Below are positions 18,211 to 36,238 of a stretch of 50,847 bases of DNA, piece by piece. Below the pieces are notes generated by a model. That model saw only the letters and a list, made by a program, of their open reading frames with translations. It was not told where the DNA came from and did not search any database. Position 1 is the stretch's first letter. Every line of letters starts with the position of its first letter. The stretch is from Lachnospiraceae bacterium (GTDB lineage: Bacteria; Bacillota; Clostridia; Lachnospirales; Lachnospiraceae), in assembly GCA_021769135.1 (NCBI GenBank), contig JAETTM010000045.1, positions 1 through 50,847 on the forward strand, read 5' to 3'. Position numbers and translations under genes: made by a program.

Positions 18211-19914
18211 CTACTGCCCCTTCCCAAACCGCACTTCACAATCCTTCCGGAAAAACGCTACCCCATAACAATCTATTTTGCGATATCCTTCCACCCGTAA
18301 CTCCTCCGCATATTTTTTATCATATATCTGCTGCAGTGCCTTTTGGGCATCCTTCTCCAAATCATCAATGGAATCCGATACCTTTAACTCCAGAACAAAT
18401 GACCTTCCCCGCAGCGAAGGGCTCTTCACCATAATATCAGAACGGCCATTCCCCGATTCGCGGTTAGATTTTACCAGATAATTCTCGCTCTGGCTTAGTA
18501 TTCCTGTCAGAAATCCATGGTAAAAGTTCTCTACGCTATCGTAGAAGCTGATGGTACGGAAAAGCTGTCCATTCAGTATACCCGTCATCCTTTCCGCATC
18601 CCCATTTTCCATTGCCCGGTATAAATCATGAAAATCTTCTTTCTTTATGATATCTCTCATCCAGCTTAAAACAGTATTCTGATAAATCGTCTTAACCTCT
18701 ATATTGGGAATCCTTGCCCGCAAAAAGATAGACGCTTCCTTAAAATATTCGCTTTCCTTCGTCAGATATCCTGTAAAATAAAGGAAGTTCCACAGATTCT
18801 CGCCATGGCTATGCATATCCTCATAAGTAATCTCTTCGTGGACCCGAATATCAAGCGTTTCTCCACGCAGCAGCGCCTCAATCTGCCCCTTTGTCTCCCC
18901 GTCGGCCCTGGAAATCAAGTCCTTAATGATTTCATTGGAACTGGTATTAATCCAATAGGGGCGGGGAAATGCGCCTTCATCCGAATATAAATCATACAGG
19001 AACTTAATTACGCTCCATGGATTATAAACTTCCGTATCCCCAAACAAATATCCGTCATACCACTCTTTCATCGTCGGGAAACGGTTTTCCACTTCATAAT
19101 AGGACATCATCCTAAGAACTTCCTGTTCTGTAAAACCAAAATGCTCGCTGTATTTTTTATCCAGTACAGAAATAATATTTAGATGATTTAATCCGGTAAA
19201 TATGCTCTCCTTTGAAATCCGCAGGCATCCTGTAATAACGCAAAACTGCAAATACTGGTTTGTCTTTAGAGCCGCTTCAAACAAGGCATGGACAAAACCG
19301 GCCATCCTTTCATAAAAACCTCTGAAATATGCATTTTCTAAAGGAACATCATATTCATCAATTAAAATAACCGAATTTTTACCAGTAATTTTATGCATGC
19401 ATTGGCAAAACAGCCTCAAAGAATTCCTTACTGTCTTTTCTTCTGCTTTCCCTTCCGCAACCGCAGTATATTGTTCATATTCCCTGGCGGAAAGACGTTC
19501 TTTCCCCCTCTCCACAACATCCCTGTGCCTTTCAAATTCCGTACTGACTGCATCTTGTATCATATAATAAGCCATATCGTAGTCTTCCTGTTTTGCTGAT
19601 TTCAACGTCAGTTCAAACACAGGATACATTCCCATCTGGGCTGTGTAGGCATCGCCGGCATCTATAATTTTCATCCCCTGAAAAAGATTCTTATTTTGTT
19701 CATTTCTTTTTTCATCCCCTGTATCTTCAAAAAAATATCGGAGCATGCTTAAGTTCAAAGTTTTTCCGAACCTTCTTGGGCGTGTGAACAGATTGACTTC
19801 TCCTTTTCTATCCAATAGTTCTTTTATGAGCATGGTTTTATCTACATAGCAATAGCCAGAATTCACCATGTCTTCAAAATTTTCAACACCTATCGGCAAC
19901 GGTCTCTTCATCAT
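18211..19914 (-). CDS. AAA-ATPase-like / PD-(D/E)XK nuclease-like protein
   Basis: The protein begins [20 protein letters not shown], then has [17 protein letters not shown] (a Walker-A-like GKT) and [10 protein letters not shown] (Walker B), the AAA-ATPase-like family PF09820 pattern. The C-terminal part, with [33 protein letters not shown] and GVAFF, is the linked PD-(D/E)XK-like domain (PF08011). Length about 567 residues is normal. These proteins occur in many copies in gut Firmicutes and Bacteroidetes, and their role is unknown, with mobility or defence having been suggested. GGAGG lies just upstream of two adjacent ATGs (19914 and 19911). It appears intact and monocistronic. Confidence 0.88.
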
Positions 19915-20010
19915 CACACCTCCATATAGTGCCATTTTCCATATTATACCCTATCCTTTCTTATTCCACAATCGATTTGCCCACCCTATTATGGAAATTA
20001 ACTTACAAGT

Positions 20011-20111: not shown

Positions 20112-20894
20112 CTATCTCTTCGCTTCGCTGATAAAAATTTTCGCCCTCTCCGGGTCGATAGGGTTTTTCATATCCCCGTTTTTAATCCAAGTGGCTACAG
20201 AAACGCCGTCATAATACTGCATCAGTTCATGGACGTTCTCCCCTGTAGCTCCTCCGCCTAAGAAAATGGGCGTATCCCCAACCCGCTTCCTTGCTTCTTT
20301 TGCCATTTGGATGCTCTCTTCCACCGTTTTCCCCGACATAAAGAGCCCGTCGGCAAAAGCTTCATGGACGCATTCCCATGCCGCATCCCCTATAGGCTTC
20401 CTTCCTAAAGGAATCCCATGGACTTCATATACATCCGCGTAAACCGGAACCTTGGAGCCGGTCCTTTTCCTTAATTCCGCGATTTCCACACACTGCGCCT
20501 GCAAAATGCCTGCGCTCGTAACATTCGCCCCGGTAAAAAGATGCTCCACCCGGACAAAATCAGCGCCCACCGCATCCGCTACGGAAAGCCCGGCCACCCC
20601 ATCCCAGTTAATCAGAATGCCCATCACCAATTCCGGAAAACGCTTCCTGATTTCCATTCCAATCCTGGTCATATATGCAATAGCTTCCGGGCGCGATGTT
20701 TGACGGATTGGCATGTCATTCATATTTTGGAGTATAATTCCGTCAAAATGGTTTTCCGCCACCATTTCCGTTTCTTTCAGCGCCAAATTCGTAATTTCTT
20801 CAATGCCCATATCCCGATGCCGGTAGCTGCCCGGCAAAGGCTCCGGCTGTATCATAGATAATATCAATTTACCGTTATTTTTTAACCCCTTCAT
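20112..20894 (-). CDS. BtpA/SgcQ-family TIM-barrel protein
   Basis: The sequence fits the BtpA family: LILSMIQPEPLPGSY at the N-terminus, FDGIILQNMNDMP, NWDGVAGLSVADAVGADFVR, VYADVYEVHG, then FLGGGATGENV near the C-terminus. E. coli SgcQ, from a PTS-containing operon, belongs here. The cyanobacterial BtpA was linked to photosystem I stability. The catalytic role of the bacterial operonic members is not established. I start at 20894, where GGAG lies 7 bases upstream and family proteins begin MKGL. ATG 20930, overlapping the previous gene, is an alternative. It is the last gene of the PTS operon, and a sugar-phosphate aldolase-like or isomerase role is only inference. Confidence 0.85.
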   Translation of the reverse strand: MKGLKNNGKLILSMIQPEPLPGSYRHRDMGIEEITNLALKETEMVAENHFDGIILQNMNDMPIRQTSRPEAIAYMTRIGMEIRKRFPELVMGILINWDGVAGLSVADAVGADFVRVEHLFTGANVTSAGILQAQCVEIAELRKRTGSKVPVYADVYEVHGIPLGRKPIGDAAWECVHEAFADGLFMSGKTVEESIQMAKEARKRVGDTPIFLGGGATGENVHELMQYYDGVSVATWIKNGDMKNPIDPERAKIFISEAKR

Positions 20895-20923
20895 TCTTGT
20901 CTCCATTTCCATGTCGCTGCTTT

Positions 20924-21895
20924 TCAGCATCTCAGCTTTCTGCTATATTCCATGCTAACCCCATACATCTGCCCTGATGGAATAATCCCTTCCTCTGTAA
21001 TAAATGCCCGGATGAATTCCGGCGCTACCCCAATTAACTCTGGGGTTACAAAATCAATCTCTTCCGTTTTAATGTCGCCGCCCCATGAGGCTGAAAGTTT
21101 TTCCTTAAGGTCATCGAAGACCAGGTTCTTCCTTCCGCCTGTTACGGGCCGTATATCCACTTTAATCATCGGTGTGAGGAAATAAAGCGGGATTCCATAG
21201 TATTTACAAATCAGCCCTACGATATCCGAGCCTGTCGTATTAAAGCCGGTCCCGTCAGGATAAAAAGTCTCCGCCCCCATAAAAGCGCCGTCACATTCTT
21301 TCAGGTAATACATCATGGACGCCTCCGGGATAAACTTAATCCGATGCCCCGCCTCCTGGCAGGCTTTCACAAATGGTTTCCCTCCATCTATAACCCTGCT
21401 TTCCGCTATATAAATTTGATATTGCTTTTGGTTTTCCGCCAGCCTCCGGAGGAACTTTTCCACTGTGCTGGAATAATCGTAAACGAATATGTTTTCCATA
21501 TCGTTAGCCAGCTTGACGCCATATGCCACGCATTTTTCAATAGCCGCAGCAGCAGTGCCTGCATAGCTGTCCTTGACGGAAAGGATTGCCTCCGCCGCCT
21601 TGTCCATATCCCAGCCATTATAGTTCCTGATATTATGTACCATAAGGCGGATGGCATTGCTGACAGCCTGGCTGGCTTCCCCTCTGGTCGCTATAAAATA
21701 GTCGGTAACTTCCACGATGTCTTCAATCACAGAAGCTGCCAAACGGTGCTCCCGCACCCCCCTTTCCACGATAGCGGCAATCATATCCCCAATCATGGAG
21801 ATATGGTTCCCCGCACCCAGAACCCTTTGTTCCACAATGGAATCAAAAGCTTCCCTGACTTCCTCCGGAAGTATCGCCCTGATTTTATCTTCCAT
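20924..21895 (-). CDS. eIF2B alpha/beta/delta-related protein without isomerase catalytic residues
   Basis: The C-terminal half follows the initiation factor 2B fold: FVYDYSSTVEKFL, IYIAESR, GHRIKFIPEASMMYYL, GAETFYPDGTGFNTTGSDIVGL, YGIPLYFLTP. Bacterial and archaeal relatives MtnA and ribose-1,5-bisphosphate isomerase use a Cys in a THCNxG loop and an Asp in GADR. Here the first reads YDYSS and the second GAET, which is the pattern of eIF2B subunits, not of the sugar-phosphate isomerases. A regulatory or ligand-binding role is therefore possible, although PTS context suggests sugar-phosphate metabolism. The stop overlaps a possible start of the BtpA gene. Confidence 0.82.
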   Translation of the reverse strand: MEDKIRAILPEEVREAFDSIVEQRVLGAGNHISMIGDMIAAIVERGVREHRLAASVIEDIVEVTDYFIATRGEASQAVSNAIRLMVHNIRNYNGWDMDKAAEAILSVKDSYAGTAAAAIEKCVAYGVKLANDMENIFVYDYSSTVEKFLRRLAENQKQYQIYIAESRVIDGGKPFVKACQEAGHRIKFIPEASMMYYLKECDGAFMGAETFYPDGTGFNTTGSDIVGLICKYYGIPLYFLTPMIKVDIRPVTGGRKNLVFDDLKEKLSASWGGDIKTEEIDFVTPELIGVAPEFIRAFITEEGIIPSGQMYGVSMEYSRKLRC

Positions 21896-21992
21896 ATACT
21901 ACCGCTCACATCCTTTCCACAATCTACGGCCCACGTCACGCATCCTATGCAGGCCGCAGATAACCCAAATAACCTCCAGCATTCCGTTCAAT

Positions 21993-22721
21993 TCATGCCC
22001 GTCCGGCCAGGAGCCTTTCCGCATTATCCCCAAGCCATGCCTTTTTCCACCCTTCCCCCGGATGCAGCGTATCGAATACGTCCAGGGAACAGCGGGTAAA
22101 ACGTTCCGGATACATAGAACCGAACAAAACCTTATCCTCCGAAACCGTTGTAAGCGCTTTTTTCAATATTTGGATTTCATACTGGTTGGATGTCTCCAAC
22201 CAGATATTCTTATATTCTTTTGCCAGTTCCACACAGCCATAGCCGTAATCAAAGCACCCCATGTGAAGAAAAATAAATTCCAGTTCGGGATGATTTTCCA
22301 CATGCTTTACCCACTGCCAGGGGATTGCCCGTGCCCCAAGGCCGGAAAAAATCTTCACTGGCACTTTTTTCTCGGCGGCTGCCTGCAGCACTTCCTCCAC
22401 CCCAGGGCAAATATCGGGATAATAGCTGTCTTCCAGCGAATTCAGTTCCAACATTACCATACCGGGGAGGGAAAGGGCATCCAAAGCTTTTTCCCTGCAA
22501 TCGGCTTCTTTAGGATTAACTACCGCACAGCCCATAAGACAATCCTGATGCCTGGATACAAACTCCGAGATATACCGGTTGCCCTCTTCATAAGGCGTGC
22601 TCACAGAAGAAACCACTCGCCTATCAATCCCGTTTTTTTTCATATCGGCAAGCAGCCTTTTTTCTTCCTCTTCCCTTGGCACATAACCGCACCCTATATG
22701 TGAATGAATGTCTATAATCAT
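21993..22721 (-). CDS. Amidohydrolase-family paralogue with missing metal ligands
   Basis: A TIM-barrel amidohydrolase (PF04909 type) starting DIHSHIG, with LHMGCFDYGYGCVELAKEYK and WLETSNQ. It aligns along its length with the second operon amidohydrolase at 25501-26241. Where that protein has QTHVGTAP and CFGTDWPYK, this one has KIFSGLGA and LFGSMYPER, so a conserved histidine and the usual catalytic aspartate are absent. It may be non-catalytic, use an altered centre, or act as a partner. I start at 22721 because GGGG lies 6-7 bases upstream. ATGs up to 22745 are in frame. It sits between EIID and the eIF2B-like gene. Confidence 0.83.
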   Translation of the reverse strand: MIIDIHSHIGCGYVPREEEEKRLLADMKKNGIDRRVVSSVSTPYEEGNRYISEFVSRHQDCLMGCAVVNPKEADCREKALDALSLPGMVMLELNSLEDSYYPDICPGVEEVLQAAAEKKVPVKIFSGLGARAIPWQWVKHVENHPELEFIFLHMGCFDYGYGCVELAKEYKNIWLETSNQYEIQILKKALTTVSEDKVLFGSMYPERFTRCSLDVFDTLHPGEGWKKAWLGDNAERLLAGRA

Positions 22722-22774
22722 TTTTAACCCCATTTCTGCGCTCATTCCGCCGCATATGCGGCATTCAATATTCC

Positions 22775-23584
22775 TTAACCAAAAATTCCAAGATAAGTGC
22801 CTGCAATCCCCACCACCATCGTTACCAGAATTAATTTGATTGCCGAAACCTTCTTTTTAGATATCAGCCAGTACATGAGCCCGGTGTACAAAAGGCCAAG
22901 GACTCCCGGCATCAGACCGTCCAATGTCTCCTGAATGCTCAGTACCGTATCGCCGCTTACGTATTCCAACGGTATGGAAATAACCACCAAAGCCGGAATA
23001 AATCCGCCTACTATGGTATATGCGGCTATGGCCGCCAAATCGGATATTTTGCTGATGAGGCCGCTGGTCTGGATTGCTTCTACAAATTTCACACCCTGTT
23101 TGTACCCCTGGAATACGCCGAGATAACGTACGCCCAGCGATACCAAGGCCATGCCAAAGATAAAGAATATCGGTCCGAACCATCCAAGCCCCGATGTAAT
23201 GAAGGAGATTGCAAGCCCTGCCAGGATTGGCCTTGCAGTTCCGTTCAGCAGAGAATCACCCAGACCTGCCAGCGGCCCCATCAGCGCTGTTTTTACCGCA
23301 TTGATGGAATCCGGATCGATGTCGCCTTCCGTTGCATATCTTTCTTCCATAGCTGCAGCCACCCCGACGGGTATTGCAGACGTAATATCATTTGTCAGGA
23401 AATATTCCATATGCCTTGCATAGGCTTCCTTTTTTGCTTCAGGATCTTCATAATATTTCTCAATAACCGGCATCATCGCTTCCGTAAACCCGGCATTTTG
23501 CTGACGTTCATAGTTATTTGCACCGCGAATGGTGAGCTGATGCAAAAATACTTTCCAAAGTTCTTTTTTCGTTAGTTTTTCCAT
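22775..23584 (-). CDS. PTS mannose/fructose/sorbose-family EIID
   Basis: The EIID integral component forms the membrane channel with EIIC. N-terminal LTIRGANNYERQQNAGF, then EYFLTNDITSAIPVGVAAAMEE, KTALMGPLAGLGDSLLNGTARPI and multiple C-terminal hydrophobic helices match the family. I start at ATG 23584 after GGGGCG. The open frame extends to 23620 but would overlap EIIC. The gene follows EIIC by 16 bases. Length 269 residues is normal. Confidence 0.95.
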   Translation of the reverse strand: MEKLTKKELWKVFLHQLTIRGANNYERQQNAGFTEAMMPVIEKYYEDPEAKKEAYARHMEYFLTNDITSAIPVGVAAAMEERYATEGDIDPDSINAVKTALMGPLAGLGDSLLNGTARPILAGLAISFITSGLGWFGPIFFIFGMALVSLGVRYLGVFQGYKQGVKFVEAIQTSGLISKISDLAAIAAYTIVGGFIPALVVISIPLEYVSGDTVLSIQETLDGLMPGVLGLLYTGLMYWLISKKKVSAIKLILVTMVVGIAGTYLGIFG

Positions 23585-23600
23585 AATATACGCCCCTTTC

Positions 23601-24347
23601 TTATGCCTTTGCATCCGCAATCTTGAAATAATAGTACATAGCTACACAAATAACTGCCAAAAGCGCAATACCCACCATGTTAATCCCTAAGTAGGATGCC
23701 ATGAAAAATCCGAGCATGCAGAATGGCCAGAATTTCTTAGCCTTGATAGAATTCAGCAAAAGAGCAAAGCCGACTGCCCCTATCATATTCCCGCCTACGG
23801 AAAGGCCCGTAATAATCTTGTCCGGAATAGCATCGATAATCCCCTGTACATATGCTGCCCCAAAATAAATCGCCAGGAAGGTAGGCACCCCATAAAGAAG
23901 CGCATTGACTGCCATCGGCAAAATCAGGTTGTTCGTCACGATTCCTTTCGTATCCAGCCGTTCCGCCGCACGCTCCACGCGGTGCATAAAGAATACGTTG
24001 ATGACCGAGTTCTGCACTGTTTCAGCCACCTGACCGATAAAGGATACAGGAAGGGCTGTAGCTACTGCGATATCCGTTCCGCCGCCTGCCAGGATTGCGA
24101 TGCCCGTAGCGATTGCCGTGCTGATGGTAGGGTTGGGCGGCACTGCCGTTCCTACGAAAATGACTGCCAGGAACATAAGCTCCACCGTGATGCCTACCGC
24201 AAACCCCGTCTGCACATCCCCCATAATAAGCCCCACTACCGGACCTACCACCACCGGCCTGAATATATGTATCTGCGTCGTATGGGAATCGATAAATGCA
24301 ATTGTTACAAATAATGCCACTAAAAATGCCTGCATAAATAAACTCAT
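23601..24347 (-). CDS. PTS mannose/fructose/sorbose-family EIIC
   Basis: The 248-residue polytopic protein has the EIIC-Man pattern: RPVVVGPVVGLIMGDVQTG, VELMFLAVIFVGTAVPPNPT, ATGIAILAGG, HRVERAAERLDTKGI and a C-terminal hydrophobic run. It forms the sugar-translocating part with EIID. AGGAGGAAAAT directly precedes ATG 24347. A 214-base structured spacer separates it from EIIB, unusual for this otherwise compact operon. Confidence 0.95.
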   Translation of the reverse strand: MSLFMQAFLVALFVTIAFIDSHTTQIHIFRPVVVGPVVGLIMGDVQTGFAVGITVELMFLAVIFVGTAVPPNPTISTAIATGIAILAGGGTDIAVATALPVSFIGQVAETVQNSVINVFFMHRVERAAERLDTKGIVTNNLILPMAVNALLYGVPTFLAIYFGAAYVQGIIDAIPDKIITGLSVGGNMIGAVGFALLLNSIKAKKFWPFCMLGFFMASYLGINMVGIALLAVICVAMYYYFKIADAKA

Positions 24348-24378
24348 ATTTTCCTCCTATTTTAGTTCCGCATCTTTT

Positions 24379-24493
24379 GTCCTAAGGGGGTATCAGGCGA
24401 AGCCTGGTGGATTCCTTAGGACCTTTCCTACCAGTGCCCTTTCTCGCGGAGCAATTTCCTGTCCGCTGCGCGGCCATGAAATTCTCCGGGAGC
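24379..24493. repeat. Two large hairpins in the EIIB-EIIC spacer
   Basis: GTCCTAAGG (24379 onward) pairs with CCTTAGGAC, with CAGGC-gaa-GCCTG nested inside. CGGAG..AATTTC pairs with GAAATT.CTCCG, ending near 24493. Next to them, TAGTTCCGCATC near 24363 recurs near 24518, and CTGTTTTCT occurs twice near 24511-24555. The spacer has no ORF. It may set the EIIB:EIIC ratio by processing or attenuation, or be an inserted repeat element. Confidence 0.6.
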
Positions 24494-24561
24494 ACTGTCC
24501 GGCATGATGCTGTTTTCTAGTTCCGCATCGCCCCTTCCGGGTTGATACTGTTTTCTGGTTC

Positions 24562-25050
24562 CTAAACTAATTTACTTTTTTTGAGAAGTTCCATTACGTC
24601 CTGGCTTTTTTCGTTGGGTACTGCGCGGACTTCCATTTTTACCCCTTTGTCATAGATGCTTTTAATCAGCTCCACATCCTCCGGAAATACCCATAGATTG
24701 CCCAGCACTTTGGTTTTCCCCTTTTTCATGTTCATGTTTCCTACATTAATCACATGGTCTTTGTATCCGGCCTCAATAAAGGTGAGCGCTTCCTTGGGGC
24801 TTCTTACCAAAAGCAGTGCTTTCCCTGCCTCTTCCGTTGTCTGTATCCACGAAATAGCCTCTTCTACTTTCAGAATTTTCAGCTGTATGGAATCCGGGGT
24901 TGCCATCTTCAGAAGAGACTGGGTAAACTCATCCCCCGCCGCCTTATCATCCGCCACTATAATCGTCTTTGCATCCGCATAAGCTATCCATGCGGTAATT
25001 ACTTGTCCATGAATCAGTCTGTCATCAATACGAAATACGCTTACTTCCAT
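24562..25050 (-). CDS. PTS mannose/fructose/sorbose-family EIIB
   Basis: The 162-residue soluble protein transfers phosphate from EIIA to the incoming sugar. DDRLIHGQV contains the phosphorylated His14, followed by AWIAYADAKTIIVADD and INVGNMN, as in the family. GAGGG lies 4 bases upstream of ATG 25050. It lies 58 bases after EIIA in the operon. The sugar is unknown: homologues carry mannose, sorbose, N-acetylgalactosamine or fructoselysine. Confidence 0.95.
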   Translation of the reverse strand: MEVSVFRIDDRLIHGQVITAWIAYADAKTIIVADDKAAGDEFTQSLLKMATPDSIQLKILKVEEAISWIQTTEEAGKALLLVRSPKEALTFIEAGYKDHVINVGNMNMKKGKTKVLGNLWVFPEDVELIKSIYDKGVKMEVRAVPNEKSQDVMELLKKSKLV

Positions 25051-25108
25051 TTTTCCCTCATTTCTGCGCTTCTTTCGCGCTCAAATCACTTTGGGCGTAT
25101 CAAGTGTA

Positions 25109-25504
25109 TTATATATCACTTACGCCAATCGTTTCGTTAAACTGCTGCTTCAGCGACTCCGTTAGACCGGCCAGCGTCGCCCCTTCATTCTGGGCTTCCA
25201 GCAGAGCGGTGACCAACGTCGGTAAATTAACCCCGTAAATCACAGTTACATTGTCGTTTTTGAAAGAATATCTGGATACTACATTAAAAGGAGTTCCGCC
25301 TTTTATGTCGCACAGGATTAAGTATTGGTTTTCGTTGGAAACTTCTGTGATTTTCTCAGCATATATTTCATTCAGCTCCTCCGCCCCCATGTCAGGCGCA
25401 AAAGTTATGCATTCCACGTTTTCCTGTTCCCCGATAAGCATATTGGACGATTCCATCAGCCCTTCCGCCAACCCGCCATGAGATGTTACAATAATGTGAA
25501 TCAT
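25109..25504 (-). CDS. PTS mannose/fructose/sorbose-family EIIA
   Basis: The N-terminus HIIVTSHGGLAEG contains the phosphorylatable His9 of EIIA-Man domains, followed by LILCDIKGGTPFNV and YGVNLPTLVTALL. At 131 residues this is a free-standing EIIA. ATG 25504 overlaps the previous gene's TGA as ATGA and has GGGGGCGG upstream, which decides this start over 25525. Phosphate comes from HPr. Confidence 0.95.
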   Translation of the reverse strand: MIHIIVTSHGGLAEGLMESSNMLIGEQENVECITFAPDMGAEELNEIYAEKITEVSNENQYLILCDIKGGTPFNVVSRYSFKNDNVTVIYGVNLPTLVTALLEAQNEGATLAGLTESLKQQFNETIGVSDI

Positions 25505-26241
25505 GCTTCCGCCCCCATTCTCCATAAATATTCTGCATTTTTGTAAAAAATATACTCCAGCTGTCCTTCTGGCACATTCAGTTCATAGAACTTCTCAACC
25601 TCTATATTCACCGGTTTATAAGGCCAGTCTGTTCCAAAGCAGACCCGTTCCGGCCCCAGTATATCAATAGCCTTTTTCAGCGTTTCCACATCCATCTGCC
25701 CTGACGTTTCCACCCAAACATTTTTTAGGCCTTTCACCAGTTCTATCGTAGAAATCCCAAATTCATAATAGCCGATATGGGTGAACAGAAAATCTATCTT
25801 CGGAAATTTCCTGGCATATTCGACCCATGCATAAGGCGTTGAAAATGGGGCTGTGCCGACATGCGTCTGTACGTGGGCGCCATACCCTTGGATGCGGGAT
25901 AAAATATCCGTTAGAGCCGGCGTATTGTCCGGATAATAGCCATGTTTCCATGAATGGAATTTGATTCCGTCCATACCGCAATCCCCCAGGCATCGGTCCA
26001 CCTCATCCAGCGCCTCAGGCGATTTCGGGTTAATGAACGCATAGGCTTTGATTTCATCCGGATGCGCTCGTTTCGCCTTTAAGACAAGGTCATTCTGCCC
26101 TCTCATTGACGTGCCGGACAAACTGCTAATCCCAACTTTTGATATTCCATATGCATTCAGATCCTGCAACAGCTCTTCCGGAGTATTTTCATCCCCCGAG
26201 CTTGTTTTTCCAAGATGCGAGTGAATATCATAAATTTTCAT
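25501..26241 (-). CDS. Amidohydrolase-family metal-dependent hydrolase, first gene of PTS operon
   Basis: A PF04909-type TIM-barrel hydrolase with the expected metal and catalytic residues in order: DIHSHLG, GIKFHSW, QTHVGTAP, FTHIGYYEFG and CFGTDWPYK with the conserved aspartate. Relatives hydrolyse or decarboxylate small cyclic or aromatic substrates, or open lactones. The substrate here is unknown but probably derives from the PTS sugar. It is translationally coupled to EIIA and is transcribed first, directly from the operator-containing promoter at 26271-26316. The second paralogue in the operon has lost two of these residues. Confidence 0.86.
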   Translation of the reverse strand: MKIYDIHSHLGKTSSGDENTPEELLQDLNAYGISKVGISSLSGTSMRGQNDLVLKAKRAHPDEIKAYAFINPKSPEALDEVDRCLGDCGMDGIKFHSWKHGYYPDNTPALTDILSRIQGYGAHVQTHVGTAPFSTPYAWVEYARKFPKIDFLFTHIGYYEFGISTIELVKGLKNVWVETSGQMDVETLKKAIDILGPERVCFGTDWPYKPVNIEVEKFYELNVPEGQLEYIFYKNAEYLWRMGAEA

Positions 26242-26270
26242 CTCCTTCCCTCCTTTTTAACATATTAAAG

Positions 26271-26284
26271 TTATAATGTTATAA
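26271..26284. promoter_or_regulatory. Putative GntR operator at PTS operon promoter
   Basis: TTATAATGTTATAA is an inverted repeat of TTATAA around two bases, located just downstream of the predicted -10. The complementary TTATAACATTATA occurs in front of gntR (27233-27245), so the adjacent GntR/UTRA protein is the likely ligand. Confidence 0.6.
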
Positions 26285-26288
26285 TAAT

Positions 26289-26316
26289 ATAATAAACGTT
26301 TTTACCAAAATGTCAA
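26289..26316 (-). promoter_or_regulatory. Promoter of PTS/amidohydrolase operon
   Basis: Minus strand: TTGACA at 26316-26311, a 16-base spacer, TATTAT at 26294-26289. The putative operator begins 5 bases downstream and would block initiation. Confidence 0.65.
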
Positions 26317-26352
26317 TAGTTTTTTTAAAATTTTTATTCTATAATTAATATA

Positions 26353-26380
26353 AAAAAATACGGCTAAACTAGTTTAGCCG
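26353..26380 (-). terminator. Terminator overlapping the gntR stop codon
   Basis: CGGCTAAACTAGTTTAGCCG is a perfect 20-base palindrome at 26361-26380, followed on the minus strand by TATTTTTTTATA. The TAG stop of gntR is at its centre, so the last codons form one arm. Confidence 0.85.
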
Positions 26381-27118
26381 CAGTTCTATTTTATATTGAT
26401 AATAATCAGGGTTGTAAAACATTTCCACATATTCAAAGGGCTTTTCATCTTCGGAACAGGTAATCCGCTTTTTATGAAATACTGCCGTATGGGGAGGAAG
26501 GCCTAAAATATTTAAAATACGTTCCGACGGAATCTTAACTTCCAGCGTCTCCTTCGCCGTAGTAGGGATAATGCCGTTCTCCCGCAGCATCACATACAGC
26601 GACGCATCGGACTTAAAACTTTCCGCCTTCAGCTTCAGCCCGGAAGTTTTTCTGATATAAGCCTTATGAAGCCCCACTACCGTATTCTGCCTGCACCGTT
26701 TCCGCTCAATATAATAAACGGTCTCCTGGGGCCAAAGCCCCAGCTGCTCTGCGATTTCGCCTCTGGGAATCAATTCCCTAAACTCCAAAAGCTCCGAACT
26801 GGCATTTTCCCCATACATGTGTACATCGTCGGTAAAGCTGGTCAATTTTCGCATATCATAAATATGTTTGGAACGGCATACGACAGTACCCTTTTTCCCC
26901 CGGTTTTTCTCTACAATCCCTTCCTGGGCGAGCATCTCCACAGCCCCCCGCACCGTAATCCTGCTAACATCATAAATCCGTTCCAGTTCCGCCTCCGACG
27001 GTATTTTTTCCCCCGGTTTGAATTCACCGCCCTGTATTTTTTTCAGCATGTCCAAATATATCTGGTAATGCAGAGGTACTTTAATCTTTTTGTCAATTGC
27101 AGAATTTGTACTTTTCAT
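26369..27118 (-). CDS. GntR-family regulator with UTRA ligand domain
   Basis: The N-terminal winged helix-turn-helix reads PLHYQIYLDMLKKIQGGEF, IPSEAELERIYDVSRITVR and GIVEKNRGKKGTVV, and a UTRA domain (about residues 90-245) follows, as in the HutC/TreR subfamily. UTRA domains bind sugar phosphates or related effectors. The gene lies immediately upstream of, and in the same direction as, the PTS/amidohydrolase operon, with a terminator between them, and both promoters carry the same AT-rich inverted repeat. It is therefore the probable local repressor, relieved by the phosphorylated PTS substrate or a product. Confidence 0.92.
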   Translation of the reverse strand: MKSTNSAIDKKIKVPLHYQIYLDMLKKIQGGEFKPGEKIPSEAELERIYDVSRITVRGAVEMLAQEGIVEKNRGKKGTVVCRSKHIYDMRKLTSFTDDVHMYGENASSELLEFRELIPRGEIAEQLGLWPQETVYYIERKRCRQNTVVGLHKAYIRKTSGLKLKAESFKSDASLYVMLRENGIIPTTAKETLEVKIPSERILNILGLPPHTAVFHKKRITCSEDEKPFEYVEMFYNPDYYQYKIELRLN

Positions 27119-27232
27119 TTTTCCCCCATTTCCGCGCAGCCGTTACGCATATTGAATTCATAGATGCCGCACAGGCATAAACTGACTTGTATATCGAAAA
27201 TCATCCCCTGGCGCAAACATTTAACGCAAACA

Positions 27233-27245
27233 TTATAACATTATA
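27233..27245. promoter_or_regulatory. Putative GntR operator at its own promoter
   Basis: TTATAACATTATA, the same motif as at 26271-26284 in the other orientation. It overlaps two TATAAT-like -10 boxes on the minus strand, suggesting autorepression. Confidence 0.55.
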
Positions 27246-27621: not shown

Positions 27622-27801
27622 ATTATAAATAGAAACCTGTTTAGCATCTCTGTACCGCCTGGGCCGGCTTTTTTGTCCTGCCGTTTCAAAGCGCTTGGAA
27701 TCTATCCCCGCGTCGTTTTCCTTGCAAGACGAAATTATTCCAGCGTACCTGGCGATACAGAGCAATTTTTAACCAAGCAAAAAGGAAAGGGGCACAAGAT
27801 T

Positions 27802-29265
27802 ATGATAACTACAGGAAACACCGGAAAAAGGGCCTGTCTGGCGTGTTTGGCCGCGGCATTGATGTTTACTTTTGCGGGGTGCGGGAACAAAAGCCCCCTG
27901 GATCCCAAGAATCCGGTGTCGCTGACTGTGTGGCACTACTATAACGGCTCCCAGCAGGCCGCATTTGACGCGCTGGTGGAAGAATTTAACGACACTGTAG
28001 GCCGGGAAGAGGGCATCTATGTACAGAGTTATTCTCAAGGGTCTGTTTCCGACCTGGAGTCGGCGGTACGGGATGCCATCGACGGCAAAGTGGGCGCAGA
28101 TACCATGCCGGACATCTTTTCCTCCTATGCGGATACCGCCTATGAGGTGGAGCAGGCGGGTGCGCTGGCCAATCTGTCCGACTATCTTGAACAGGAAGAA
28201 CTGGACATGTATGTTGACTCCTACATTGAGGAAGGCCGAATCGCCTCCGATGGTTCGCTCCGGATTTTTCCTACAGCAAAATCTACGGAAATCATGATGG
28301 TAAACGAAACGGACTGGGAACCATTTGCCGTAGCCACCGGCGCTTCTATGGATGATTTGGCGACCGTGGAGGGCGTTACAGCCACCGCGAAGGCCTATTA
28401 TGAGTGGACGGACAGCCTCACCCCCGATGTGCCGGAAGACGGCAAGGCGTTTTATGGAAGGGATGCTTTGGCCAATTACTTTATCATCGGAATGCAGCAG
28501 CTGGGCGTGGAGATTTTTCAGGTTGAAAGCGAAGGGTTTACTTTGAATGTGCCCAGGGAAGAGCTGCACCGCCTGTGGGAGAACTATTATGTTCCCATGG
28601 TCAAGGGATACTTCGGGGCCTATGGCTCCTTTCGCTCGGACGATGTGAAGACCGGGGACATTCTGGCCTATACCGGTTCCACCACCTCCGCCATGTATTT
28701 CCCGGATCAGGTGGAACTCGACAGCGGAACCCATGCTATCGACTATGCCGTGCTCCCCGCTCCCATATTCGAGGGTGGGAAAAACTATGCTGTACAGCAG
28801 GGAGCCGGCATGGTGGTCAGCAAGTCCGACAGACAACACGAATACGCTGCCGTTGAATTCCTGAAATGGTTCACCCAGACGGAAAACAACCTTCGGTTCG
28901 GCTGCGTGTCCGGCTATCTGCCAGTACGGAAGGAAGCTGCCAATGTTCAGAATCTGGAACGGGTCATCGCAAATCAGGGCCTGTCGGTGGTGCCCAAGAC
29001 CTATGACTGCCTGACTAGCATTTTCAACGAAATGGATGGGATGACCCTCTATACTAACAAAAGTTTCCAAAACGGTTCCGCAGCGCGAAAGGTATTGGAA
29101 TACAATCTGGCAGACCGGGCAGCTGAGGACCGGGCGGCAGTAGCGGCAGCCCTGGCCCGGGGGGAAAGCCTTGATGAGGCATCCGCCCCCTATGTGACAG
29201 ATGAGGCCTTTGAAAACTGGTACAATTCTTTCTGCGATGCGCTGAACGCTGCAATTGATGGGTAA
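27802..29265 (+). CDS. Extracellular solute-binding lipoprotein adjacent to hybrid kinase
   Basis: A 487-residue family 1-type solute-binding protein. The signal peptide ends in a lipobox (FAG-Cys27), so it is membrane-tethered outside the cell. VSLTVWHYYNGSQQAAFDAL begins the mature domain, in the style of sugar-binding components, and GAGMVVSKS and AVEFLKWFTQ are typical of the C-lobe. I start at ATG 27802 with GGGG upstream. There are no ABC permease or ATPase genes nearby. The hybrid histidine kinase begins 8 bases before this gene's stop codon. I infer that it delivers a ligand to that kinase and does not feed a transporter, though orphan transport use is possible. Confidence 0.9.
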   Translation: MITTGNTGKRACLACLAAALMFTFAGCGNKSPLDPKNPVSLTVWHYYNGSQQAAFDALVEEFNDTVGREEGIYVQSYSQGSVSDLESAVRDAIDGKVGADTMPDIFSSYADTAYEVEQAGALANLSDYLEQEELDMYVDSYIEEGRIASDGSLRIFPTAKSTEIMMVNETDWEPFAVATGASMDDLATVEGVTATAKAYYEWTDSLTPDVPEDGKAFYGRDALANYFIIGMQQLGVEIFQVESEGFTLNVPREELHRLWENYYVPMVKGYFGAYGSFRSDDVKTGDILAYTGSTTSAMYFPDQVELDSGTHAIDYAVLPAPIFEGGKNYAVQQGAGMVVSKSDRQHEYAAVEFLKWFTQTENNLRFGCVSGYLPVRKEAANVQNLERVIANQGLSVVPKTYDCLTSIFNEMDGMTLYTNKSFQNGSAARKVLEYNLADRAAEDRAAVAAALARGESLDEASAPYVTDEAFENWYNSFCDALNAAIDG

Positions 29266-32200
29266 AGATGCTATGAAAGGTAATAGTCGAAACAAAAAAA
29301 AATCATCAATTTTCCGTATGTTCCTCTTCCCGTTAATCGGCATAATGCTGCTGCAGAGCGCCATTACCATCGGCACATTGGTGTTTAGGCGGACCACGAA
29401 AACCCTGGAGGAGTATTCCGCCAATATGATAAGCCGTCTGGTGGAAAACCGGGGAGTGATTCTGCAAAGCGATATGAACCAGCGTTGGGCCTCCATCCAC
29501 AGTCAGGAAGACAGGATTGACAGCATCTTGAGGCAGTACCTGGACATCAGGGAAGAGGAACTGGACGTTCTTCTGCGTTCCGATGAAATGAAGCAGGAGT
29601 TATTGGAACTGCTGTTTCCGGAGTGTTTGGATATCCTGCAAAATAATTCCACCACGGGAGTCTTCTTTATTTTGACCGGATCGGATATACAGAATCCAGA
29701 TGAGTTTGACGGGTTTTTTATCCGGGATTCCGACCCAAACACAAACCCTGCCAATTACACAGATTTACTGCTGGAACGGGGCAGCAAGGAACTGTCCCGG
29801 GCCTGGAACATCCCGTTAGACACCCACTGGACTACCCGGTTTCATATGGACGGCCAGGGGAAAAATCAGGCTGATTGTTATTTTTACGAGCCTTGGCAGG
29901 CCGGCATGGACTATCCGGACGCGGACACGTCGGATTTGGGCTACTGGGCCATGCCTTTCCGCCTGGAAAAGGACAGCACAGACTCCCATGAAATGATTAC
30001 ATATTCCCTGCCTCTGCGGTATAAGGGAAAGACTTACGGCGTGCTGGGGATAGAAATCTCCAGCAGGATTTTGTACAACTACTTTCCCGTGGCAGAACTG
30101 AACGATTCCCAGCAATCGGGGTATCTGCTGGCTGTCAGAAAGGAGGACGGCGGTTATACGCCTTTAGTAGGCAAGGGAATCCTTTATGATTTGATTCGGC
30201 CCATGGAGGGCGGATTCGATTTAGATGAAACGGATTACCGGCAGCTTTACCGAGTACGGAATGCCAAGTTGAATGGCCAGGGCATCTATGCCGTGGCGTA
30301 TCCCCTGAAACTGTACAGCAACCATGTACCCTATGACAATACGGAATGGGTGCTTTTGGGGCTGGATACGGAAGAAGACTTGTTCGGCATGAGCCGCCAG
30401 CTATATATCTGGATAGTTATTGCTGTCCTAATCGGCCTGAGTTTCGGCGTAATAGGAATCTATCTGGCTGTGAGGCATCTGACCAAACCGGTTCAGCGGC
30501 TGATGGATTGCATCAGCAGGGGGCGGGCGGGCCTTCAAAACTACAAGCTTTCCAATATTCTGGAGGTTGATGCTCTCTACGATGTAGTAGTCGGCCTGAC
30601 GGAGCAGCAGAAGAAAGCGGAAAATATTCTCCTGGAGGAGAAAGAGCGCTATAAAGTGGCCCTTGAATCCTCAAAAGATTGCTTTTTTTCTTATGATTTG
30701 CAAAGCCAGATGCTGGATATTGTCAATGACCCCATGAGCGGGCAAAGGCTGTGCCCTAAAACGGAAATATGTTTTATTAACCCCGAGTATATCTATGAAG
30801 ATGATAGGGCGGGGGCTGTGGAGGCCGTGCAGAGGGATCCGGATAATCCGTATGCGGAATTCCGGCTGTGCTGGCCAAAGGCAGCGGAGTTCGTCTGGAT
30901 TGCCCTGTCGGGCAAGACGGTCCACAATACGGATGGGCAACGGTGGAAGCTGGTGGGAAGTATCCGCAACATCCAGGAGCAGAAGGAGAAGGAGGCTGAG
31001 CAGCGCAGGAAAAGCACAATGGACGGCATCACAGGGCTCTATAGTTTCGGGGCAGGCATGGAACAGCTGATTGGATACCGGAAGAACCAGCCGGAGGGCG
31101 TGCTGTCCTGCCTGTACGTAGGGCAGCTGAAACAGACCAACGAGAAAAACGGCATTGTCTTCGGAGACATGATTCTGGAAGAACTGGGCATTATGATTCG
31201 GGAAAGCTGCCGGGAACTTACCGAGCAGACTGGTTGCCGAACGGTCGCCCTGCGCCTGAACCGGGATGAGTTCGTCCTGTGGCTGGAAAGCTGTACCAAA
31301 ATACAGGCTGCGGAGTTTACAGGATGTCTGCTGAAAAAAGCGGCGGCGCGCTTTGGGAATGAGACCTTCCGCATTCAAATGTGTGCCGGCCTGGCACTGG
31401 GAGAGCAGGAACGAAGCACGGAACAGCTAATCAGGATGGCAAAACTGGCGCGGAGCCTTATTCATCCCGGAGCCAGGGAACAGTTGCTTTTTTATGATGC
31501 AATTCCCTCTAAGGAATGTGCTGCCCTGCCCCCGCTTCAGGAACAGGAAAGCAGTTTGCTGGGTTACGGGGAGGACACGAGTCTGGTGTCGGTAGCCTTA
31601 AACCTATTTGGCAAGGGGGGCGACTTCGATGCGCAGATGATGCTGATGATTAGGAAAATCGGGCGGTACTACAATGCCTGCAGCGTGTTGGTTTCCCTGC
31701 TGCAGGCGGATTTCAACTCCAACTATTTGAATTATCAGTGGCACCAGTCGGGGGAAACTGATGCAAACAACGTCATAAAATACACCAATGCGGAAAAGAA
31801 TGACTTTTTACGCTGGCTGGGCCAGGACGAAGTTCGGTATTTCTCTCCGGAGGACAGCGGCCAGGAAGTTCTTCAGCGTTTCCTGAATATCTCTCCGGGC
31901 CAGGAAGGAATTGTGCTGCCCATGTACGACAGCGGCAACTATATGGGTAACGTCTGCATTTTGGGCATGCCGAAAAACCGTCTGGAAGAACCCGACGAGT
32001 ATCAAAATCTGGCAGAACTGGGCCAGGTCATCCAGGGCCAGCTCAACCAACAGCAGCATGATACTGCAAGCAAGGCGAAATCCGAATTCCTTTCCCGCAT
32101 GAGCCATGAAATCCGCACGCCCATGAACGGCATCATCGGTATGACTTCCATTGCCCTTCAGAAAGGACAGAATCAGGAGCGGATTCTGGACTGCCTGCAA

Positions 32201-33196
32201 AAGATTCAGTCCTCTTCCAATTATCTGCTGGGGCTCATCAATGACATTCTGGATATGTCCAAAATCGAAAGCGGCAAAATGAAGCTGGATTCTGTGAACT
32301 TTGATTTATATGAGATGCTTGACACTATCCGGGAACTGATTATGCCCCAGGCTACGGAAAAGAAAATTGAATTTGTGCAGGATATCACCCTGACTCACCG
32401 ATGGTTCATGGCGGACAGGATGCGAATTAGCCAGGTGCTGATTAATTTGCTGGGCAATGCGGTAAAGTTCACCCCTGAAGGGGGCCGGGTTACCTTGGGC
32501 GTAAAGGAGTCCGATGCAGCGGAAGATGTGCCCGTCATCAGCTTTATGGTACAAGATACCGGCATCGGCATCGCTAAAGAAGAGCAGGAGCGTGTCTTCC
32601 GTTCCTTTGAACAAGCCGGAGCGAACTCATCCAAGCAACAGGGAACCGGCCTTGGCCTTTCCATCAGCAGCCGTCTGGTACAGATGATGGGGAGCAGCAT
32701 CCGGCTGGAGAGCGCGCCTGAAAAGGGCAGTACATTCAGCTTTGCCGTTCCTCTGGCGCTGGGTGAAGAGGAAGAAAGCAGAACCAATGCGGAGAATCTT
32801 TCCTTCGAAGGGTACCGCATTTTGGTAGTGGAGGACAACGAGCTGAACGCCGAAATTGCGCAGTGCCTGCTGGAAGAGCGCAATTTTGAGGTGGAATGCG
32901 TCCATGACGGCGCTCAGGCGGTGGAACGCATTCGCACGACAAAGCCGGGAACCTATGATGTGATTTTGATGGACATTATGATGCCGGTAATGGACGGTCT
33001 GGAAGCTACCCGCATCATCCGAAGCATGGAGCGGGAGGATTGCCATACTATACCTATTATCGCCATGTCGGCAAACGCTTTTGACGATGATTTGAAGAAG
33101 TCAGTGGAATGCGGCATGAATGGCCACTTGTCCAAGCCGGTGGAGGTTGACAAACTGTATCAGACCCTGAGCGAGGTACTCCGTGTTTACATGTAA
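29258..33196 (+). CDS. Large hybrid sensor histidine kinase with degenerate GGDEF and receiver domain
   Basis: A 1312-residue protein with, in order: membrane segment (about 20-42), extracytoplasmic sensor of about 330 residues, second membrane segment (382-404), HAMP-like and PAS-like region (to about 570), a GGDEF-like domain whose signature reads RLNRDEF (Asp670, Glu671) and so lacks both glycines, a further GAF-like region, the H-box SHEIRTPMNG with His950, an ATPase domain (GTGLGLSISSRL), and a receiver with VVEDNE and phosphoacceptor Asp1239. It overlaps the lipoprotein gene. ATG 29258 is chosen, and ATG 29273 is possible. Having no DNA-binding output, it must pass signals through a separate phosphotransfer or regulator, not present here. 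Confidence 0.92.
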   Translation: MGKDAMKGNSRNKKKSSIFRMFLFPLIGIMLLQSAITIGTLVFRRTTKTLEEYSANMISRLVENRGVILQSDMNQRWASIHSQEDRIDSILRQYLDIREEELDVLLRSDEMKQELLELLFPECLDILQNNSTTGVFFILTGSDIQNPDEFDGFFIRDSDPNTNPANYTDLLLERGSKELSRAWNIPLDTHWTTRFHMDGQGKNQADCYFYEPWQAGMDYPDADTSDLGYWAMPFRLEKDSTDSHEMITYSLPLRYKGKTYGVLGIEISSRILYNYFPVAELNDSQQSGYLLAVRKEDGGYTPLVGKGILYDLIRPMEGGFDLDETDYRQLYRVRNAKLNGQGIYAVAYPLKLYSNHVPYDNTEWVLLGLDTEEDLFGMSRQLYIWIVIAVLIGLSFGVIGIYLAVRHLTKPVQRLMDCISRGRAGLQNYKLSNILEVDALYDVVVGLTEQQKKAENILLEEKERYKVALESSKDCFFSYDLQSQMLDIVNDPMSGQRLCPKTEICFINPEYIYEDDRAGAVEAVQRDPDNPYAEFRLCWPKAAEFVWIALSGKTVHNTDGQRWKLVGSIRNIQEQKEKEAEQRRKSTMDGITGLYSFGAGMEQLIGYRKNQPEGVLSCLYVGQLKQTNEKNGIVFGDMILEELGIMIRESCRELTEQTGCRTVALRLNRDEFVLWLESCTKIQAAEFTGCLLKKAAARFGNETFRIQMCAGLALGEQERSTEQLIRMAKLARSLIHPGAREQLLFYDAIPSKECAALPPLQEQESSLLGYGEDTSLVSVALNLFGKGGDFDAQMMLMIRKIGRYYNACSVLVSLLQADFNSNYLNYQWHQSGETDANNVIKYTNAEKNDFLRWLGQDEVRYFSPEDSGQEVLQRFLNISPGQEGIVLPMYDSGNYMGNVCILGMPKNRLEEPDEYQNLAELGQVIQGQLNQQQHDTASKAKSEFLSRMSHEIRTPMNGIIGMTSIALQKGQNQERILDCLQKIQSSSNYLLGLINDILDMSKIESGKMKLDSVNFDLYEMLDTIRELIMPQATEKKIEFVQDITLTHRWFMADRMRISQVLINLLGNAVKFTPEGGRVTLGVKESDAAEDVPVISFMVQDTGIGIAKEEQERVFRSFEQAGANSSKQQGTGLGLSISSRLVQMMGSSIRLESAPEKGSTFSFAVPLALGEEEESRTNAENLSFEGYRILVVEDNELNAEIAQCLLEERNFEVECVHDGAQAVERIRTTKPGTYDVILMDIMMPVMDGLEATRIIRSMEREDCHTIPIIAMSANAFDDDLKKSVECGMNGHLSKPVEVDKLYQTLSEVLRVYM

Positions 33197-36186: not shown

Positions 36187-36204
36187 TCCGCGTCTCCTTT
36201 CTTT

Positions 36205-36215
36205 CACATGTGATA
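36205..36215. promoter_or_regulatory. Shared motif ACATGTGATA, candidate AraC-type operator
   Basis: CACATGTGATA at 36205-36215 in the xylosidase leader recurs as ACATGTGATA at 36429-36438, inside the araC promoter, and is kept in the decayed copy near 33616. The repetition in both divergent control regions suggests a site for the adjacent AraC protein. Confidence 0.45.
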
Positions 36216-36238
36216 GTGATTGCAAAAGCCTGGGCTGT

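Follow-up and report, generated by a model that had tools for sequence, protein, structure and literature searches.

Which compound is taken up, and how is it broken down, where a phosphotransferase system (PTS) is encoded together with two amidohydrolases, an eIF2B-like protein and a BtpA-family protein? This question is raised by a nine-gene operon (20112-27118) on the minus strand of contig JAETTM010000045.1 from a Lachnospiraceae bacterium, the whole 50,847-nt length of which was analyzed (hereafter the window) and to which all coordinates refer. All of the parts belong to known families; the combination, together with the exchange of the eIF2B-like and BtpA pair for a glycohydrolase in a relative, is new as far as we know. 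No publication joining these genes or naming their pathway was found in the open-licence literature, in line with the original prediction of a PTS-linked catabolic pathway without an assigned reaction. Gene swaps in relatives suggest that a phosphorylated N-glycoside is processed rather than a sugar lactone, and the cassette is read here tentatively, at somewhat less than an even chance, as holding everything required to catabolize a nucleoside-like N-glycoside. The most likely compound of this kind is an N-riboside with a cyclic-amide aglycone such as a dihydropyrimidine or hydantoin.

Organization of the operon

The genes, assigned to families by Pfam and NCBIfam profile search, are as follows in the direction of transcription:

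26369-27118, minus strand, GntR/UTRA regulator (PF00392 and PF07702)
25501-26241, minus strand, amidohydrolase B (PF04909), complete metal site
25109-25525, minus strand, EIIA of the mannose class (PF03610)
24562-25050, minus strand, EIIB of the mannose/sorbose class (PF03830)
23601-24347, minus strand, EIIC (PF03609)
22775-23620, minus strand, EIID (PF03613), TTG start as listed
21993-22745, minus strand, amidohydrolase A (PF04909), degraded metal site
20924-21895, minus strand, eIF2B-like protein (IF-2B, PF01008)
20112-20930, minus strand, BtpA-family protein (PF03437 and TIGR00259)

The order and families agree with those originally given for a minus-strand operon, and the interval considered there, which ends at 27245, takes in the gntR leader. 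The ATGA couplings described for it hold in one place, where the stop of amidohydrolase B overlaps an in-frame ATG of EIIA at 25504; the other overlap, at the eIF2B-like/BtpA junction, is seven nucleotides long (ATGCTGA), and the remaining gaps range from 16 to 214 nt. For EIID, an ATG at approximately 23584, 36 nt inside the listed TTG and behind the Shine-Dalgarno-like GAAAGGGG, appears the more likely start.

EIIA, EIIB, EIIC and EIID all score far above the Pfam cut-offs for PF03610, PF03830, PF03609 and PF03613, which identifies a mannose-class PTS (EII-Man). With regard to the EII-Man specificities that have names (GalNAc, galactosamine, mannose, sorbose), all 15 EII matches to NCBIfam models fall short of the cut-off (AgaW, 179.2 against 300 bits; TIGR00822, 161 against 339.85; TIGR00828, 203 against 292.75), and the nearest is TIGR00824, with 95.3 against 98.35 bits.

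Conservation and rarity of the cassette

An eIF2B-like profile scan of a genome collection (84,980 species), which relied on two short peptide patterns and thus gives a lower bound, returned three loci (L037, L038 and L039) whose eIF2B-like proteins are 92, 76 and 67% identical to that of the window and which contain all nine genes in the same order. With three further loci, L033 (genome G022), L130 (G727) and L149 (G971), the cassettes carrying both the eIF2B-like and BtpA genes number seven, the window counted; the L037 contig, which recurs as G970, was counted once. The gene order is rearranged in L033, from another family of the same order, with no EIIA found within 19.9 kb, and in L130, from the same family, EIIA is relocated behind BtpA. 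The gntR gene is present in six of the seven cassettes, and the seventh contig (L149, same genus) begins downstream of its position, at amidohydrolase B. Another contig end (L150, G023) holds EII genes and one amidohydrolase only.

The flanks of L037, from the same genus, are common to the window on both sides. No flanking protein of L149, L038, L039, L033 or L130 is shared with the window at E<=1e-10 over the stretches compared; the L038 cassette adjoins an rpoC-like gene and that of L039 a trmD-like gene (names assigned by eye). The gene set is thus found again at six other loci, at five of which the flanks differ from those of the window, and the co-occurrence on which the original prediction depended extends beyond this genome.

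The set is also rare. A full-length eIF2B-like relative occurs in one genome besides that of the window among 295 of the order, 45 other matching genomes giving weak partial matches (best 3.1e-10), and at E<=1e-20 a single remote match (24% identity) besides that of the window appears across 398 genomes of the phylum. At E<=1e-40, and with the genome of the window included each time, amidohydrolase B is found in 2 of 299 genomes of the family and 6 of 195 relatives; it is present in 3 of the 16 same-genus genomes listed, again counting its own. Single PF04909 genes of the phylum stand in varied settings without the cassette. The cassette is conserved but rare and self-contained, and it seems to hold transport, phosphorylation and all of the enzymes needed, because nothing else travels with it.

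Two local features of the relatives were recorded. The EIIC frame of L037 (L037:7538-8089, the same contig as L148:7255-7806) is 183 residues long compared with 248 in the window, which reflects a broken gene or an assembly error. In L033, a DeoC-like gene (L033:3652-4314) is separated from BtpA by approximately 5 kb that include sucrose-type genes (names by eye) and was not counted into the cassette.

The eIF2B-like protein

Most of the eIF2B-like protein can be aligned with archaeal ribose-1,5-bisphosphate (R15P) isomerases and with eIF2B subunits. The archaeal enzyme belongs to the same fold family and acts on a nucleotide-derived sugar phosphate; in Thermococcus, Cys133 and Asp202 are catalytic and the lysine of an Asn-Lys pair touches the sugar (available text of PMC5789824). 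The eIF2B-like protein, in contrast, has Tyr141 and Glu209 in place of the catalytic cysteine and aspartate and a threonine in place of the lysine, as do all seven cassette copies. Its scores lie far below the cut-offs of the isomerase models compared, with 62.1 against 314.1 bits for the R15P isomerase equivalog (TIGR00511) and 27.1 against 279 bits for methylthioribose-1-phosphate isomerase (TIGR00512). In light of these replacements and scores, the isomerase function originally suggested for this protein was abandoned. We know of no settled reaction for bacterial eIF2B-like proteins that do not retain the isomerase residues.

The motifs DYSST and GAE are invariant among the cassette copies, and the gene directly precedes BtpA in all seven BtpA-bearing cassettes. 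The eIF2B-like query finds nothing near BtpA in 29 other loci, and no relative on plasmids at E 1e-5. The remote 24%-identical gene (L092:7353-16112, G417) stands beside a PF04227 gene, Bmp/PnrA-type ABC genes and a PfkB kinase; we take PF04227 to include pseudouridine-5'-phosphate glycosidase, and this neighborhood is a remote hint toward an N-riboside-like phosphate.

A gene swap in Klebsiella and the neighborhoods of ADP-ribosylglycohydrolases

Plasmid CP067510 of Klebsiella pneumoniae carries amidohydrolase B (53% identical), EIIA, EIIB, EIIC, EIID, amidohydrolase A, an ADP-ribosylglycohydrolase (PF03747) and GntR, and the annotation of the 24.7 kb read shows neither an eIF2B nor a BtpA gene. 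Identity to the proteins of the window is 54% for its EIIC and 57% for its EIID, compared with 51 and 48% for G022, which retains the eIF2B-like and BtpA pair, and this closeness suggests a shared substrate. Most simply, a single substrate class would be split by two different means. In E. coli genomes, the Klebsiella cassette has no DNA relative at the sensitivity used.

The Klebsiella glycohydrolase is matched by 57 plasmid records, and eight loci besides CP067510 were read among the matches listed, two of them unannotated (L124 and L127) and read from open frames and Pfam. A phosphorylating device stands beside the hydrolase in all eight, a PfkB kinase in L045, L046, L047, L124, L125 and L127 and a PTS IIABC in L048 and L126. 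The kinase of L045 is annotated as aminoimidazole riboside kinase, and the other partners include an annotated cytosine permease (L047 and L125), a PF02133 permease (L124) and UshA (L046), and yegU, also among the matches listed for the Klebsiella hydrolase, stands beside a nucleoside permease.

The Salmonella cluster L045 is similar to the cassette in that GntR control and uptake with phosphorylation are followed by a glycohydrolase, which is 55.6% identical to that of Klebsiella. It differs in using a major facilitator superfamily transporter and a PfkB kinase, the aminoimidazole riboside kinase, instead of a PTS, with no amidohydrolase, eIF2B or BtpA annotated beside them. To our knowledge, the catabolic reaction of this cluster is not established. 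E. coli yegTUV (nucleoside permease, ADP-ribosylglycohydrolase and sugar kinase) follows the same logic of uptake, phosphorylation and glycohydrolase but has neither a PTS nor amidohydrolases, as far as the available text of PMC10819704 describes it.

The BtpA-family protein and its clade

The BtpA protein scores 176.9 bits against a cut-off of 30 for PF03437 and 180.1 against 153.4 for TIGR00259. Its residues N69, R127 and K250 are invariant among the BtpA proteins compared, and D194 is nearly so. Proteins of the BtpA/SgcQ family occur widely, and we are aware of no settled reaction for them; a close relative of solved structure was not found for the BtpA of the window. A profile of 25 BtpA rows gives weak matches in its C-terminal half to TrpA-type proteins (1e-5), CutC (3e-5) and GGGPS (1.5e-4), whereas TrpF reaches only 0.02. 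Because of the weak matches to TrpA, CutC and GGGPS, BtpA is probably a phosphate-binding TIM barrel that binds a phosphorylated ligand. Predicted structures of BtpA and the eIF2B-like protein, built from four close rows, had mean pLDDT values of 61.2 and 63.8, too low to use, and a fold search with the BtpA model, which gave TM-scores of approximately 0.3 to mixed TIM barrels, was not used as evidence.

PF03437 is found at E<=1e-15 in 17 of 299 genomes of the phylum. The 24 places listed include two in the genome of the window, and the 20 loci read cover 21 of the other 22 (all except G318:C109). PfkB, FGGY or EII-Man genes occur within 8.5 kb of BtpA in 13 of the 20, several of the other seven being cut by contig ends. 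Two trees of 32 rows each were calculated, leaving out L101 (no clear BtpA frame), L120 (close to L119), the second L099 copy and G318:C109. The clade of the window joins only L113, L115, L116 and L117 in the first tree (support 100/98); in the second, from which the long-branched L114 and L117 were omitted and to which L130 and L149 were added, it joins L113, L115 and L116 (99/98).

The BtpA proteins of the SgcQ, FGGY and M42 settings form a separate supported clade that does not contain the BtpA of the window in either tree. A function like that of SgcQ, taken from the family name, was accordingly dropped, and the link to SgcQ made in the original prediction is not supported. The E. coli sgc operon (plasmid copy L042) shares with the cassette a BtpA-family protein in a PTS operon but differs in its M42 peptidase, its epimerase and the clade of its SgcQ; we take its PTS to be galactitol-type.

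The four loci that the window joins instead share a PfkB-SIS-BtpA module (SIS proteins 33-52% identical; three PfkB proteins compared, 32-39%), and two of them have nucleobase or ureide genes as well. L113 additionally encodes a Bmp/PnrA binding protein, a PF02133 permease, xanthine-dehydrogenase-type subunits and a dihydropyrimidinase (498.5 bits against a cut-off of 393.25), and L115 a DeoC-family aldolase, FdrA over its cut-off, AllG and a dihydropyrimidinase-like protein below the cut-off (287.1).

Other arrangements of BtpA were also seen. A second BtpA in the genome of the window (L034:2566-6167, G000:C69), beside an FGGY kinase and a xylose-isomerase-like gene, falls on the FGGY/SgcQ side of the tree. 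In L112:8774-15246 and L114:3327-9488, a sigma-54/PRD regulator precedes mannose-class EIIABCD genes, and the gene directly after these encodes a BtpA from another clade, which makes a second, simpler PTS-BtpA arrangement.

The two amidohydrolases

In amidohydrolase B the metal site is complete (H7, H9, H127, H155 and D205) and is kept in all six copies aligned. In amidohydrolase A, by contrast, phenylalanine or threonine stands at H127 and methionine, serine, histidine or aspartate at D205 among seven aligned copies; six have phenylalanine with methionine, serine or histidine (phenylalanine and methionine in the window), and the Klebsiella copy has no HxH, H127 or H155 but keeps D205. The residues of an active PF04909 enzyme (HxH, two more histidines and an aspartate) are thus present in full in B but not in A, and the two proteins are not the equal amidohydrolases that had been assumed. 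Six of seven other tandem PF04909 pairs (L076 and L085-L089; the exception is L077) likewise combine an intact with an altered copy, as compared by automatic alignment, with L076 and L085 differing at one residue only. A is therefore probably a partner subunit. The pattern suggests that tandem PF04909 genes in transporter operons generally encode an active/inactive heterodimer. The PF04909 decarboxylases for gamma-resorcylate and 5-carboxyvanillate belong to the superfamily of amidohydrolase B, but their matches to it are distant and mostly partial, and no reaction is transferable.

Dihydropyrimidinases near BtpA

At the end of the G727 cassette, EIIA is followed with an ATGA overlap by a 463-residue dihydropyrimidinase (TIGR02033, 466.6 bits against 393.25). 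This family was picked for a scan of 20 BtpA genomes at E<=1e-70 after three cases had already been seen, and eight genomes contain it, four of them (G727, G464, G479 and G539) within 7 kb of BtpA. The near copy of G479 is below the cut-off, with a better copy 75 kb away, and that of G539 is cut by a contig end and accompanies a BtpA of another clade. The copies of G451, G318, G372 and G680 are not near BtpA, those of the first three lying on other contigs. In the class of G479, BtpA occurs in 2 of 22 genomes, one of them G479 itself, too few cases to evaluate the adjacency, which is suggestive only.

A proposed pathway

EIIABCD would import the N-glycoside and phosphorylate the primary hydroxyl of the sugar (the 5'-OH if it is ribose), standing in for the permease and PfkB kinase of related operons. 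The eIF2B-like protein and BtpA, jointly equivalent to the single ADP-ribosylglycohydrolase of Klebsiella, would then detach the aglycone from the phosphorylated sugar, so that a sugar phosphate enters central metabolism. The likelier catalyst is BtpA, given its resemblance to a phosphate-binding barrel; the eIF2B-like protein may bind the sugar phosphate, either as an altered isomerase or in a partner role. The aglycone would be hydrolyzed or decarboxylated by amidohydrolase B, for which A is a putative non-catalytic partner, and one relative may add its dihydropyrimidinase to this step. The reading as an N-riboside-like phosphate is based on the glycohydrolase swap, the PfkB-SIS clade, the riboside kinase, the nucleobase permeases, the Bmp/PnrA protein and the dihydropyrimidinase; for the riboside-phosphate glycohydrolase class, the evidence is that of gene swap and neighborhood.

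A bolder form of this proposal is a PTS that imports a nucleoside-like compound together with a new riboside-phosphate-splitting BtpA and a re-purposed eIF2B-fold partner, interchangeable with ADP-ribosylglycohydrolases. We consider it doubtful; its candidate substrate would be 5,6-dihydrouridine, derived from the turnover of tRNA, or a related pyrimidine riboside in reduced or oxidized form. The cassette is informative in either form, as it sets BtpA and an eIF2B-like protein stripped of isomerase residues next to a phosphorylating transporter and few further genes. In the Klebsiella version one glycohydrolase takes the place of the pair, and together these features turn an otherwise unassigned PTS operon into a small set of assays. 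If the proposal is true, bacteria use the PTS for nucleoside-like compounds and an enzyme class is gained for part of the large orphan BtpA family; the bolder form would provide the first reaction class for one clade of that long-unassigned family.

Several observations weigh against an N-riboside. The weakest point is the role of the eIF2B-like protein, given that one glycohydrolase replaces it and BtpA together, and simple hydrolysis needs no such protein. We know of no nucleoside-importing PTS. The Klebsiella proteins are more distant from the window than those of G022 in EIIB (37 versus 47%), amidohydrolase A (35 versus 39%) and GntR (23 versus 35%), and for this reason the Klebsiella substrate may differ. 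A beta-glucoside-type PTS IIABC directly precedes the ADP-ribosylglycohydrolase in L048 and L126, from Listeria and Enterococcus plasmids. Identity between the sister BtpA proteins and that of the window is only 30-33%, and no nucleobase gene was recognized by eye in L116 or L117. The apparent second swap, with SIS and PfkB beside the hydrolase in one setting and beside BtpA in the other, is an analogy and not orthology; in Yersinia, the SIS and PfkB proteins encoded next to the hydrolase are far removed in sequence from those encoded near BtpA. Dihydropyrimidinase is a common family, present in 5 of 14 well-known control genomes at E<=1e-70. The genome of the window (G000) has no true dihydropyrimidinase (best match 158.8 bits) and tblastn finds none near the other six cassettes, leaving one in seven, so this enzyme cannot be essential. 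The yegTUV functions are called unknown, with a suspected link to ADP-glucose, in the available text of PMC10819704.

Alternative explanations

The beta-glucoside-type PTS genes of the Listeria and Enterococcus plasmids leave room for another PTS glycoside, an O- or N-hexoside whose aglycone is hydrolyzed and for which BtpA/eIF2B or the ADP-ribosylglycohydrolase would serve as phospho-glycosidase. EII-Man systems usually carry hexoses, and in L112 and L114 EII-Man genes occur with a BtpA from another clade. Nevertheless, six of the eight hydrolase loci pair the enzyme with a PfkB kinase, several with nucleobase or nucleotide genes, and G727 has a dihydropyrimidinase, and a hexoside is regarded as distinctly unlikely. 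EII-Man systems for glucoselysine exist as well, and the fold of the SIS protein in the sister BtpA operons is shared by fructoselysine-6-phosphate deglycase (weak NF008481 match, 21.8 against 430 bits). The PTS might on these grounds import an amino-deoxyketose, a glycated amine of the Amadori type, with the eIF2B-like protein or BtpA acting as deglycase in the manner of the SIS deglycases of glucoselysine and fructoselysine operons. This is improbable: the cassette has no SIS gene, the SIS protein of L115 matches GlmS models best, also under their cut-off, and the ADP-ribosylglycohydrolase swap points to a glycosidic bond.

The scheme of the original prediction, in which a sugar or sugar-derived lactone or amide is imported, hydrolyzed by the amidohydrolase and isomerized by the eIF2B-like protein, is favored by the lactonases that PF04909 includes, by the full metal site of amidohydrolase B and by the long alignment of the eIF2B-like protein with R15P isomerase and eIF2B chains. 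Given the replaced cysteine and aspartate, the low isomerase scores and the joint replacement of the eIF2B-like and BtpA proteins by a glycohydrolase in Klebsiella, we judge it improbable. A separate question, compatible with any of these substrates, is whether the eIF2B-like protein is a sugar-phosphate sensor or scaffold and BtpA alone is catalytic. Eukaryotic eIF2B subunits are not isomerases, and the invariant DYSST and GAE motifs and the absence of eIF2B matches near BtpA in the 29 other loci are consistent with such a role, whereas the strict placement directly before BtpA and the joint loss of both in Klebsiella speak against it; a sensor or scaffold is possible, though less likely than not.

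Regulatory sites

Three candidate sites lie between gntR and amidohydrolase B:

26359-26382, minus strand, terminator-like stem-loop after gntR (10-pair stem and T run)
26289-26316, minus strand, promoter-like TTGACA-16-TATTAT before amidohydrolase B (motif scan)
26271-26284, strand-neutral, palindrome TTATAAYRTTATAA directly downstream of the -10 box, candidate GntR operator (conservation)

Seven terminator-like sites are found in the window compared with 8.4 expected from shuffled sequence, and the stem-loop alone is thus no evidence; a similar one follows gntR at the same place in L037 and not in L038 or L039. Promoter-like sites number 21 against 14.9 expected from shuffled sequence (standard deviation 3.8), the site at 26289-26316 being among the two best. 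Its TTGACA is invariant across the four aligned cassettes (window, L037, L038 and L039), and the palindrome is retained in the window and L037, perfect in L038 and interrupted by one mismatch in L039. Counts alone give no support, and the promoter and palindrome are favored because they are preserved in four cassettes where much of the intergenic DNA varies. Upstream of gntR stands a related GTTATAATGTT, which is present in the window and L037, has one mismatch in L038 and is not found in L039. The GntR/UTRA protein is probably a local repressor, which would sense the substrate or its phosphate and repress from the palindrome beside the promoter.

Neighboring genes

Just downstream of the operon, 18211-19935 encodes a protein with AAA-ATPase_like and PDDEXK_9 domains that is not among the flanks common with L037. 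Divergent from gntR, 27673-33196 contains a solute-binding protein followed in overlapping frames by a 1313-residue GGDEF-histidine kinase-receiver hybrid. Further away, 34180-36225 encodes a protein with a GH120 insertion domain and a beta-helix, possibly a xylosidase-type enzyme, and a close relative of it adjoins the L037 cassette.

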